This document shows positions 6,772-44,999 of a stretch of 64,000 nt of DNA, one piece after another (position 1 is the stretch's first letter; each line of letters begins with the position of its first letter). The stretch covers positions 62,001 to 126,000 of the forward strand of contig JAHYJC010000004.1 in assembly GCA_019429275.1 (NCBI GenBank). Direction: 5' to 3'. Origin of the DNA: Lentimicrobium sp. (GTDB taxonomy: Bacteria; Bacteroidota; Bacteroidia; Bacteroidales; Lentimicrobiaceae). Position numbers and translations under genes: made by a program. Below the pieces are notes generated by a model, which was given only the letters and a program-made list of their open reading frames with translations, did no database searches and was not told the DNA's origin.

Positions 6772-7998
6772 ATGGATATTCAATCAATTAAACAACGTTT
6801 TGGTATAACCGGTCATTCGCCTTTGCTTGACAGGGCTATAGATGTTGCCCGACAGGTGGCACCCACCGATATAACAGTATTGATAAATGGTGAAAGTGGC
6901 GTGGGTAAAGAAGTTTTTCCCCAGATCATTCATAATCTCAGTTCCCGGAAACATGGTCCTTATATTGCTGTAAACTGTGGTGCAATTCCCGAAGGAACCA
7001 TTGATTCAGAATTGTTTGGTCATGAAAAGGGCTCATTTACAGGAGCACATGAGGCGAGAAAAGGATATTTTGAAGTTGTGAATGGTGGAACCATCTTTCT
7101 TGATGAGGTTGCTGAACTTCCTCTTTCCACGCAGGTCAGATTGCTTCGTGTACTGGAAACCGGAGAGTTTTTTAAAGTAGGTTCTTCCAAAGTTATCAAA
7201 ACCGATGCAAGGGTTGTGGCGGCAACCAATGTTGATATTCCCGAGGCCATTCAAAAAGGAAAATTCAGACAGGATCTGTTTTACAGATTGAATACAGTTC
7301 CAATCTTTATTCCACCTTTGCGGGAGAGAAAAGACGATATTGTTTTGCTTTTTAGGAAATTCGCAGTTGATTTTGCCGAAAAATACCGCATGCCGGCGCT
7401 CGAACTCGATGATTCATCAAGGCAGATGCTAATGAATTACAGATGGCAGGGGAATATTCGTCAGCTTAAAAATATTACTGAACAAATTTCAATTATCGAA
7501 CAAAGCAGATTGATTACCTCTGACATTCTGCAAACGTATTTGCCCCGTGAAAACCGCGATTTGCCGGTTCTTTATAACAAAGAGTCTGCTTCGTCGGATT
7601 TTTCGGAACGTGAATTGCTCTATAAAGTGCTGTTTGACATGAAGCGCGACATCAATGAGATGAAAAAGCTTGTTGTTGATATACTTGAACAGGGAGGAGT
7701 AAGTCACGATCTAAAAAGAGAACATCAACCCATAATTGCTCAGCTCTACAATGAAATTGATAATCAGGGCGATGAAGAGAATATGAATTATACGGGTAAT
7801 CCTTCTGAGCCGATTGTACTCGATACTTTTTATACACATGAGGTGCTTGACGATTCATTGTCTCTTGAAAAAAGAGAGATTGAGCTTATTAAAAGAGCCA
7901 TAGATAAACATGGGGGAAAAAGGAAAAATGCTGCCAGGGAATTGGGCATATCCGAAAGAACCCTTTACAGGAAAATAAAGGAGTATGACATTCATTAA
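6772..7998 (+). CDS. sigma-54-interacting transcriptional activator lacking a receiver domain
   Basis: 408 residues. The AAA+ domain begins almost at the N terminus: Walker A GESGVGKE (about 40-47), sigma-54 contact loop GSFTGA (about 87-92, Ser for the usual Ala), Walker B FLDE (about 109-112) and the arginine-rich PLRERKDDI. A variable linker of about 100 residues follows, then a Fis-type helix-turn-helix (NAARELGISERTLYRKIKEY) at the end. There is no receiver or GAF sensor domain, so activity must be controlled by another protein or by amount. It overlaps lptE by 14 bp, so the genes are translationally coupled; this order with lptE and secG is common in Bacteroidota. Confidence 0.93.
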   Translation: MDIQSIKQRFGITGHSPLLDRAIDVARQVAPTDITVLINGESGVGKEVFPQIIHNLSSRKHGPYIAVNCGAIPEGTIDSELFGHEKGSFTGAHEARKGYFEVVNGGTIFLDEVAELPLSTQVRLLRVLETGEFFKVGSSKVIKTDARVVAATNVDIPEAIQKGKFRQDLFYRLNTVPIFIPPLRERKDDIVLLFRKFAVDFAEKYRMPALELDDSSRQMLMNYRWQGNIRQLKNITEQISIIEQSRLITSDILQTYLPRENRDLPVLYNKESASSDFSERELLYKVLFDMKRDINEMKKLVVDILEQGGVSHDLKREHQPIIAQLYNEIDNQGDEENMNYTGNPSEPIVLDTFYTHEVLDDSLSLEKREIELIKRAIDKHGGKRKNAARELGISERTLYRKIKEYDIH

Positions 7999-42039: not shown

Positions 42040-43419
42040 TTATTTTTTAATATTCTTTCTTTTACGTGGGTTGGTAGATTTTAAACCGTAGCGCAAAATT
42101 TTTGCATTAAGCGTAGGGCGTGTAATTTCAAGTACTCTGGATGCTTCCAGTTTATTCCAGTTTAGTTTATCCAGCACCTTTTGAATGTGATTCTTTTCAA
42201 TAACGGAAATTGGGACCAAAACCGTTTGTTCGTCCACCGTTTCAGATTGCATATGCGGGCTTATGATAATATTCTCTTTTTCAAGTACATCGCTACGGGT
42301 CATGATCATGGCCTGTAAAAGTACGTTTTCAAGTTCTCTCACATTTCCCGGCCAGGAGTGTGCTTTGAGTTTATCGATTACCCCATTGCCAACCTTCAGG
42401 ATTTTCTTGTTCATCTTTTGGTTAAGCTTCTGCATCAGGTGCCTGACAAGTTCATCAATATCATCTTTACGGGATCGCAACGGAGGCATGGTTATGGTAA
42501 ACACTTTAAGCCTATAGTAGAGTTCCTCTCTGAATTTTCCTTCCTTTACCAGCTTTTCAAGGTTTTTACTGGTTGAGGAAATTATCCTTGCTTTAAGCGG
42601 GACAGGTTGTTGAGCGCCGGGCTTTTCAAATTCCATATCCTGAATAACCCTCAGCAGCCGGGTTTGCATGGCTTCATCCAGGTCGGAGATGTTATCCAGA
42701 AAAATTGTACCTTCCTGTGCCAACTCGAATTTGCCCGTTTTGCCGGTTGAAGCATTTGGAGAAGCACCTGCCTCATATCCGAAAAGATCTTCTTCAATAA
42801 GTCTTTGGTTTATTGCAGAACAATTAACCAATACCAGAGGATGCTCGCGGGTTTTGCCGCTGAAGTGTATAAGCTTGGCAATAAGTTCTTTACCTGTCCC
42901 GGTTTCGCCGGTAATTAAAACGTTAACTTTGTTGATAGAAATCCGCCCGATGTTCTTGAAAATTTCGCGCATTGATGGTGCTTTTCCAACCAGCAGATTA
43001 GATTCAATTGCTTTTCTGATCTCAGGTGTGATGATTTCACTTAAAGTCTGGCTCTGAAGCGAAACTTCAAGTCCGTTTTTGATGATTTCAAGTAATTCTG
43101 GCATTTGAATGGGCTTTTCTATATAATCATATGCGCCCATTTGTATCGATTTTATAGTTAGAGGAACATCGCCAAACGCAGTAAGCACAATGACAGGAAT
43201 ACCCGGCATGGCTTTCTTTAATTCTGTGAGTACATCCAGACCAGAAATTCCAGGCATTTGGTAATCGGTTATGATGATGTCAGGTTTTTCAGTTTCTGCT
43301 TTTATAAGCCCCGATTCACCGTCTGAAGCTGTGATTACCTCATATCCCGCACTGGAAAGGCTACCTGAAATCAACGTTCTGATAATGGAATCATCATCAA
43401 TGGCTAAAATTTTGCTCAT
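42040..43419 (-). CDS. NtrC-like response regulator with a degenerate AAA+ core
   Basis: 459 residues: receiver domain (1-115, phospho-acceptor Asp 52 in ITDYQMPG), AAA+ domain (about 140-370) and a Fis-type HTH at the C terminus (LEASRVLEITRPTLNAKI). Walker A GETGTGKE (171-178) is intact, but the sigma-54 contact loop, normally GAFTGA, reads GASPNAS (218-224) and the Walker B box reads FLDN (N243 in place of the catalytic Glu). The arginine region PLRSRKDDI is kept. So it probably binds ATP and DNA and responds to phosphorylation but should not remodel sigma-54 polymerase in the usual way. No histidine kinase gene is adjacent. Confidence 0.9.
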   Translation of the reverse strand: MSKILAIDDDSIIRTLISGSLSSAGYEVITASDGESGLIKAETEKPDIIITDYQMPGISGLDVLTELKKAMPGIPVIVLTAFGDVPLTIKSIQMGAYDYIEKPIQMPELLEIIKNGLEVSLQSQTLSEIITPEIRKAIESNLLVGKAPSMREIFKNIGRISINKVNVLITGETGTGKELIAKLIHFSGKTREHPLVLVNCSAINQRLIEEDLFGYEAGASPNASTGKTGKFELAQEGTIFLDNISDLDEAMQTRLLRVIQDMEFEKPGAQQPVPLKARIISSTSKNLEKLVKEGKFREELYYRLKVFTITMPPLRSRKDDIDELVRHLMQKLNQKMNKKILKVGNGVIDKLKAHSWPGNVRELENVLLQAMIMTRSDVLEKENIIISPHMQSETVDEQTVLVPISVIEKNHIQKVLDKLNWNKLEASRVLEITRPTLNAKILRYGLKSTNPRKRKNIKK

Positions 43420-44105
43420 CGCACTGTGATTTATAATTTTGGATATTTAAACAAATATACAACAAAAAGAGTCAAATACAGTAAAAGTTTTTAACTTATA
43501 ATAATAAGCTCATTTTACAATTTTTGAATTCATCTTTATAAAAGGGATTAAGCGACTTAAAGTATTGAAATCATGGGTAAAAATGGATTTTTGATTCTTA
43601 AGAGATGCCTTTTTATTAACGTCATTATTTCCACCGTTCAGTAAATTTTTCAGCCATTCAGTTTTAGGGTGGTTTTTCTACAGTTTGTTTATTTTACTCC
43701 ATAAATCTGACAAGTGAAATTTGACATTTTTAATTCAACCAATGGAATTTATCATATGATTTCTATTGATAAAAAGTCACAAATTCAAATGACTCTAATG
43801 GTAAATAATTTAGATTATCTCTTTTCCGGAATTGCATTATTATGTCTAATATTCGTAAAACCTGGTGAATAGAAATAAATATTTGTATATCTTCCAAAAG
43901 ATTTTCTTTTGTCTTTACAAACCAATGATTTAACCGGAATCGATGATTCAAAATAAAAAATAGTGTTAACCGTTTTTTAATTTGATATTCTTTAAATGGC
44001 CCGATTTTTGAGCATACCGATTTCGGTCATTTTAGTTTATCTTTGCATTACTAATTTTTACCGAACTGAATCAACCCAAAATAAAATTAACTAAAACAAG
44101 AAAAA
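43420..44105. promoter_or_regulatory. 686-bp intergenic region between the response regulator and a lipoprotein gene
   Basis: AT-rich, no supported gene (a 62-codon minus-strand frame at 43763-43951 has no family features). It holds the -7 box TATCTTTG at 44038-44045 before the lipoprotein gene. I see no RNA gene, terminator or clear operator in the rest. Confidence 0.5.
44038..44045 (+). promoter_or_regulatory. -7 box of the lipoprotein gene
   Basis: TATCTTTG matches TAnnTTTG, 60 nt before the ATG at 44106. Confidence 0.45.
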
Positions 44106-44999
44106 ATGAAAAAGTGGAATTATTTATTTATGGCTCTGCTCATGTCAGCAGCGGTTATGGTCTCCTCCTGTGGTGATGACGAAGAAGAAGATCCGGGTCC
44201 AACCCTTACTCTTAAAGGTGGTACTGGATATACATCTACCGATGCAACTGTTCAAATCAATGAAGCAATTACTGTAGGAGTTATTGGAACCAAGAGCCCG
44301 GTTTCAGGTCAGAAGCTTACCAGGTTTAAATTTTCGGTTATCGCAAATAATGTGCCCACTCCAATGATTGACTCTACTTTCTCATCTGATTCATTTACAT
44401 GGGAAAGTGATCTTTCATTTACCGGTGTTGGCGATGCAAGGTTACTTTTCGAAATGTGGGACAAAGGTGGCATGAAAGCTGAAAAGTCTTTTAACGTTAC
44501 CGTAGAAGATCCGGGTACTGAGATCAACAAATATGTCAATGTAGAATTCGGATCCTGGAATGATGTTGTCGGAAGTTTCTTCTCTTCAACCGAAGGCATA
44601 ACCTACAATGTAACCCAGACATCAACTTCATCGGCAAACCAGCTGAAAATTGATTTCATTTTCTTCAAAGGTGTTACCAATGCCAATACTTTTGCTTCAC
44701 CTGATGATACTGATGTCAATACTATCAACGACCTGAAAGTTAATTTATGGCCGGTTGCAAACAAGAATCAAACCCGGTTCAATCCGACCAACATTACTGC
44801 ATCTCAGTTTGATGCCATCGGTGCAACTTACCAGTTCCCGACATTCAGTCTGAATGACCAAACCACGAAAATGAACAATCTTTCAGTTGGCCAGGTATTC
44901 CTGTTTAAAACCAAAAACAATAAACTAGGCCTGGTAAAGGTTGTTGACCTATACAGCCGTGGCGATCGCGCCAAAGCAAGCATTATTGTGCAGAAGTAA
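44106..44999 (+). CDS. putative lipoprotein with acidic linker
   Basis: 297 residues. The lipoprotein signal (MKKWNYLFMALLMSAAVMVSSC, lipid-carrying Cys about residue 22) is followed by an acidic stretch DDEEEDP, a common surface-exposure-type signal of Bacteroidota lipoproteins, then two beta-rich segments (about 35-140 and 145-297) of Ig-like or PKD-like character. No enzyme motif is recognised. Isolated, with its own -7 box and terminator. I cannot assign a function. Confidence 0.75.
   Translation: MKKWNYLFMALLMSAAVMVSSCGDDEEEDPGPTLTLKGGTGYTSTDATVQINEAITVGVIGTKSPVSGQKLTRFKFSVIANNVPTPMIDSTFSSDSFTWESDLSFTGVGDARLLFEMWDKGGMKAEKSFNVTVEDPGTEINKYVNVEFGSWNDVVGSFFSSTEGITYNVTQTSTSSANQLKIDFIFFKGVTNANTFASPDDTDVNTINDLKVNLWPVANKNQTRFNPTNITASQFDAIGATYQFPTFSLNDQTTKMNNLSVGQVFLFKTKNNKLGLVKVVDLYSRGDRAKASIIVQK

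Follow-up and report, generated by a model that had tools for sequence, protein, structure and literature searches.

Several NtrC-type regulators that lack GAFTGA, including NtrC of Rhodobacter capsulatus, NtrC of Caulobacter and VpsR of Vibrio cholerae, act at sigma-70 promoters (PMC10274813), and the GAFTGA-deviant homologues HupR, TyrR and DhaR have also been reported to be sigma-70 dependent (PMC3162934). Among about 110 GAFTGA-deviant homologues, replacement of Thr/Ser by Pro was the preferred change at position 4 of the motif (PMC3162934). A literature search found no treatment of GAFTGA-less activators in Bacteroidota.

In this study, we analyzed a response regulator encoded in a 64,000-nucleotide stretch of DNA (hereafter, the window) and compared it with these systems. 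Like R. capsulatus and Caulobacter NtrC, which work at sigma-70 promoters, it is an NtrC-family response regulator without a usable GAFTGA (PMC10274813). However, those two proteins carry loop deletions, whereas the loop of the window family is full length and substituted (GAFPxA); phylum and regulon also differ, and an Asn in Walker B is peculiar to the window clade. VpsR is likewise a GAFTGA-less member of the sigma-54 activators (bEBPs) and acts at sigma-70 promoters of surface (biofilm) genes (PMC10274813, PMC3162934), but it uses c-di-GMP and its sequence similarity to the window regulator is weak (132 bits). HupR, TyrR and DhaR are not orthologous to the window regulator, and TyrR and DhaR are not response regulators. 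The closest solved full-length relative, NtrC1 of Aquifex aeolicus (4l4u, 1ny5), shares the receiver-AAA+-HTH order but, unlike the window regulator, keeps the canonical loop and Walker B.

Domains and motifs of the window regulator

Pfam analysis of the 459-aa protein identified Response_reg (residues 4-114), Sigma54_activat (143-309; 193 bits against a cut-off of 20.2), AAA_lid_14 and HTH_8, which is the combination of receiver, sigma-54-type AAA+ domain and Fis-type HTH found in sigma-54-dependent bEBPs. Walker A, the arginine fingers and sensor II (WPGNVRE) are all retained, as in bEBPs, whereas the loop has no Thr/Ser at position 4 and Walker B reads Asp-Asn instead of Asp-Glu (Table 1). 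As in the GAFTGA-less group, loop 1 has no sigma-54 contact, here by substitution rather than deletion, and the phospho-acceptor Asp is retained. Judged by its motifs, the window regulator lacks two features that define sigma-54 activators (loop Thr and Walker B Glu) and most likely groups with the sigma-70-acting kind.

An earlier sequence-only reading had reported the GASPNAS loop, the FLDN box and the preservation of Walker A, D52 and the HTH, all of which were borne out, and its description of the receiver-less regulator at 6772-7998 as intact also proved correct (GSFTGA and FLDE). It had missed the sensor-I strand, which is STS in the window regulator versus ATN in most relatives. A structure predicted from a shallow alignment had a plausible fold (pLDDT 77.9, pTM 0.54) and was left out of our reading of loop details.

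Table 1 Positions of the regulator gene, its motifs and its upstream elements in the window
Feature	Position	Strand	Basis or remark
Response regulator gene, 459 aa	42040..43419	-	ORF and Pfam; receiver, AAA+ (sigma-54-interaction type), lid, Fis-type HTH
Receiver phospho-acceptor Asp52 (D52)	43264..43266	-	Invariant in 18 genus orthologues
Walker A GETGTGK, residues 171-177	42889..42909	-	Kept
Loop 1 GASPNA(S) for GAFTGA, residues 218-224	42748..42768	-	Codons: G218 42766-42768; A219 42763-42765; S220 42760-42762; P221 42757-42759; N222 42754-42756; A223 42751-42753; S224 42748-42750
Walker B FLDN for FLDE, residues 240-243	42691..42702	-	Second acidic residue replaced by Asn; codons: F240 42700-42702; D242 42694-42696; N243 42691-42693
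Arginine-finger segment FREELYYRL, residues 296-304	42505..42531	-	Kept across genus; coordinates derived from codon numbering
Fis-type HTH segment, about residues 420-446 (...ITRPTLNAKI...)	42082..42162	-	Signature of orthologous family
Candidate Bacteroidota -7 element TATATTTG, own promoter	43452..43459	-	Consensus from PMC6847099
Half-conserved dyad AGTTAAAAACTTTTACT, candidate autoregulatory	43480..43496	-	Conserved island, also in G010 and G015

Distribution and phylogeny of the orthologous family

The taxonomic family of the window genome consists of one genus with 19 genomes. Full-length orthologues were present in 17 genomes besides the window genome (57-79% identity), far above the next paralogues (31-40%), and the remaining genome (G017) contained only a fragment (68% identical). 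Loop position 4 lacked Thr in all 18 orthologues (15 Pro, 1 Leu, 1 Asn and 1 Gln), the predominant Pro being the same change that is preferred among the surveyed deviant homologues, and the Phe-to-Ser change in the loop was confined to the window regulator. Since Thr was gone from every orthologue and kept in paralogues of the same genomes, the loop change is beyond chance. At the second acidic residue of Walker B, 12 orthologues had Asp and 4 had Glu, and Asn was limited to 2, those of the window and its nearest relative, G010. Thus, two events of different age can be distinguished, an old one in the loop and a young one in Walker B. From this distribution it appears that the loop loss is old and predates diversification of the genus, and that the double loss is local.

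The sequence-only reading had implied that the two losses belong together and had proposed an alignment of orthologues as a check. The pattern within the genus (DD in 12, DE in 4 and DN in 2) did not agree with this: the loss of the loop Thr was conserved, the loss of both motifs was not. That reading had also named orthologues with intact GAFTGA and DE as evidence against it, and the only such proteins that we found belong to families f8, f58 and f119, outside the genus. Because they form a sister branch, they indicate descent from a sigma-54 activator and do not rescue a sigma-54 function for the window regulator. In PspF, the loop change T86A prevents engagement of the sigma-54 closed complex, and E108 variants, including E108D, show lower ATPase activity and lower activation on duplex DNA (PMC4132715), so even the DD orthologues may be weak ATPases.

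The loop loss was not caused by loss of the sigma factor, because both rpoN and intact paralogues were present. We detected rpoN in 18 of the 19 genus genomes (the window genome copy lies on G000:C50) and in most genomes with degenerate orthologues, and the window genome encodes seven other strong sigma-54-domain proteins. Among its paralogues, L002 (G000:C19; about 388 aa) combines a GSFTSA loop with the Walker A sequence GNNGTGKE and ends without a Fis-type HTH. Genome G136 (96% complete) has several intact bEBPs and no rpoN match, which may be an assembly gap or a real loss.

A search of 247 genomes of the order revealed ten more members outside the genus, and at the cut-off used no orthologue was found outside the order among 345 genomes of the class. 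Phylogenetic analysis placed the genus and order members in one orthologous clade of 28 rows (support 100/100), which splits into an intact-motif branch and a loop-lost branch, the latter supported at 99/95. Members of the intact branch (families f119, f8 and f58) have the loops GSFTGS (L089), GAFTDS (L091), GSFTGA (L092) and GSFTDA (L097), all with DE and the arginine-finger segment FREDL(Y/F)YRLK. The loop-lost branch comprises the genus and three other families: f48 reads GLVDSA in the loop and has lost the arginine fingers, f32 has no loop at all, and f86 retains neither loop nor Walker B; receiver and HTH are conserved in this branch. A tree calculated without the AAA+ core was compatible with a single loop-lost clade (p-AU 0.42) and does not settle the branching order, so there may have been one or two losses.

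Domain conservation differed between the two branches. The AAA+ core was the most conserved domain in the intact branch (81-86% versus 54-59% for the receiver), whereas the loop-lost families reversed this ranking, as illustrated by the identities between L093 and the window regulator (AAA+ core 40, receiver 59 and HTH 66). In the most degenerate members the AAA+ core was the least conserved part, while receiver and HTH held; in the genus, the core was about as conserved as the receiver (76.5% versus 73.7%). Such a reversal is expected if the remodelling task of the ring was dropped and DNA binding was kept. We tentatively suggest, as an idea with somewhat less than even odds, that this one family might record a stepwise change from a sigma-54 activator to an ordinary DNA-binding regulator, in which the loop Thr would have been lost before Walker B, the arginine fingers or the whole loop, with receiver, HTH and a surface-gene dyad regulon kept throughout.

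Gene neighbourhood, predicted dyad and promoters

The regulator adjoins a cluster of surface genes in deep members of the genus (G006, G014 and G018), as well as in G174, G239, G103 and partly G136. This cluster encodes DUF4402 proteins, a PapD-like chaperone (a call based on a sub-threshold PapD_N match), large secreted proteins and a large usher-like protein (about 1060 aa) that contains a SPOR domain. In many cluster loci the next gene after the regulator encodes a small secreted DUF4402-like protein. This neighbour is absent beside the regulator in the window, G010 and G015, the G010 copy being located elsewhere, and DUF4402 had no match in the window genome, the same search being positive in 13 of the 19 genus genomes. 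No histidine-kinase partner was found beside the genus orthologues. Three genes (L127:10606-11010, L130:2584-3018 and L170:2418-2837) represent a small secreted family of 130-163 aa that is weakly DUF4402-like, has the motif (V/A)TGH..AE(V/I)V(E/D) and is tied to the dyad described below and to the regulator. At window positions 44106-44999, a secreted protein without a Pfam match is encoded, which is kept beside the regulator in 13 loci in all; in L119, a sigma-54-like site (TGGAACGGTTTTTGCA) lies 103 bp upstream of its counterpart.

An inverted repeat, ATGTAAA-N5-TTTACAT, recurs upstream of the DUF4402-like neighbour gene. It matched 13-14 of 14 positions in 10 of 12 DUF4402-like loci from at least three taxonomic families, and in each of these 10 loci its score was equalled by only 0-2 of 300 dinucleotide shuffles. 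G006, G014, G018 and G010 each have a pair of copies with a spacing of 39-45 bp, and in G010 the dyad had moved together with the relocated gene. Weaker versions of the dyad also occur upstream of the regulator gene itself, the strongest in f32 (13/14), where no DUF4402-like gene follows, and others at 11-12/14 in six genus loci; it is chiefly these copies that connect the dyad with the regulator. Its layout, TGTAA-N7-TTACA, is the same as that of NtrC sites (TGCAC-N7-GTGCA). Other copies precede genes of large secreted proteins with PKD, GEVED/fn3, cleaved-adhesin or SprB repeats. Across the genus, with one mismatch allowed, there were 90 matches versus 39 for a reversed-pattern control; exact matches in the wider order, outside the clade, were at background level.

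With regard to promoters, no sigma-54-like site above threshold was present in 24 regulator upstream regions or in 10 regions upstream of DUF4402-like neighbour genes. At the loop-lost loci (regulator, DUF4402-like neighbour and cluster genes), the only exception was the f86 locus L137, beside an intact bEBP, with a good sigma-54-like site (TGGCACGATCATTGCG) at a DUF4402 gene. Since no convincing sigma-54 promoter was found beside the intact-loop orthologues either, the two branches do not contrast cleanly in promoter type. The element TAnnTTTG, the -7 element of the Bacteroidota housekeeping sigma (PMC6847099), lay between dyad and start at 5 loci against 1.3 expected, and the predicted promoters at candidate targets are of the housekeeping type rather than of the sigma-54 type.

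In the window genome, a one-mismatch dyad precedes a SprB-repeat adhesin gene (G000:C103:73796), and alignment with G008 and G013 revealed that dyad and TAnnTTTG are conserved amid more diverged sequence. The dyad was not enriched in this genome (4 versus 3 in the control), and the 64 kb of the window contained 6 matches with at most 3 mismatches (8.2 expected). The window, G010 and G015 share a conserved island upstream of the regulator gene, AGTyAAAAwCTTTTAC, with TATATTTG some 20 bp further downstream; by motif score alone, the dyad in this region of the window was at chance level (232 of 300 shuffles), and autoregulation is therefore a suggestion. Given the missing enrichment, the absence of DUF4402 and the chance-level upstream dyad, the regulon of the window genome may have shrunk.

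Proposed mechanism and alternative explanations

The reading that we favor, with a probability of roughly 0.6, is that the window regulator descends from a sigma-54 activator that was uncoupled from sigma-54 before the genus diversified, and that it is a phosphorylation-gated protein which binds the predicted dyad near housekeeping promoters and adjusts surface or adhesin genes. As a dimer or higher oligomer, the phosphorylated protein would bind a dyad of 17-19 bp, either ATGTAAA-N5-TTTACAT or a variant of it, close to promoters that the housekeeping (sigmaABfr-type) RNA polymerase uses. Genes of DUF4402-like, SprB-repeat or PKD-type secreted proteins, and possibly the regulator itself, would be its targets. 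ATP might still be bound and promote assembly, since the protein has kept Walker A, the arginine fingers and sensor II, whereas hydrolysis would be dispensable, and the window protein probably hydrolyses ATP weakly or not at all. That this regulator binds the dyad, the sign of its effect on transcription and its loss of ATPase activity are inferences, and the dyad could instead be bound by another regulator. With respect to the earlier proposal of a regulator working without sigma-54, the genus-wide Thr loss, the presence of rpoN and the housekeeping-type promoters speak for it, and the pairing of the two motif losses is not supported.

A variant loop of the GAFPxA type might still engage sigma-54, and the regulator would then remain a sigma-54 activator. 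In its favor, the loop retains its length, Gly-Ala and usually Phe and Ala, the genus has conserved Walker A, the arginine fingers and sensor II, four orthologues keep DE, the AAA+ core is about as conserved as the receiver and rpoN is present. We nevertheless regard this as rather improbable: position 4 varies freely among Pro, Leu, Asn and Gln, which would not be expected of a constrained contact, the change from Thr/Ser to Pro is the most frequent one in homologues that were set apart from true activators (PMC3162934), candidate targets have no sigma-54 promoter nearby, and the loop later disappeared altogether in sister families of this branch. Still less probable is an ATPase-dead, dominant modulator that would act on intact bEBPs through mixed hexamers or site competition, and not at housekeeping promoters. 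This idea draws on f86, where a strongly degenerate member and an intact bEBP are immediate neighbours (L133 and L137) and a DUF4402 gene has the sigma-54-like site noted above; no such pairing exists in the window genus, and the HTH signature is unlike that of the paralogues. The f86 pairs themselves (L133:2203-5064 and L137:7722-10689; intact partner with GSFTGA and DE) have receiver and kinase genes upstream, and a division of labour between intact and degenerate regulator is possible.

Decay of the gene deserves slightly more weight than either of these, although we consider it unlikely. Here, targets would have been lost in the window lineage and the double motif loss would reflect relaxed selection on the way to a pseudogene. 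This agrees with the absence of DUF4402 proteins and of the DUF4402-like neighbour, and with the restriction of accumulating Walker B and sensor-I changes to the window clade. The window regulator also has 50 private changes versus 18 in G010, and it carries 9 private changes at sites invariant in the other 17 orthologues (0-3 in five others checked). However, the adjacent peptidase (66 versus 25) and lipoprotein gene (45 versus 17) are likewise richer in changes on the window branch, so that this fast branch is weak evidence for relaxation. Moreover, the frame is open, one of 42 HTH sites carries a private change, dN relative to G010 is about 0.15 with dN/dS far below 1 (a qualitative statement, as dS is saturated), and the loop loss, common to 18 of 18 orthologues, is older than the window lineage. 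The earlier view that the rest of the gene is constrained and not a pseudogene thus agrees with the purifying selection observed.

Implications

A phosphorylation-gated, sigma-54-independent regulator of surface adhesins, as favored above, would most likely be a new lineage of a known kind, represented by VpsR and by R. capsulatus and Caulobacter NtrC. Its novelty lies in the lineage, in a loop of unchanged length, in orthologues that form a graded series and in the regulon predicted for it. All these proteins are labelled as sigma-54 activators by Pfam and NCBI models, which calls for caution in annotation. To our knowledge, conversions of a sigma-54 activator into a sigma-70 regulator are few, and each is known as an isolated end point. 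With intact, intermediate and fully degenerate orthologues that have a common predicted DNA site, this family makes both the order of loss and the residual use of ATP directly testable.
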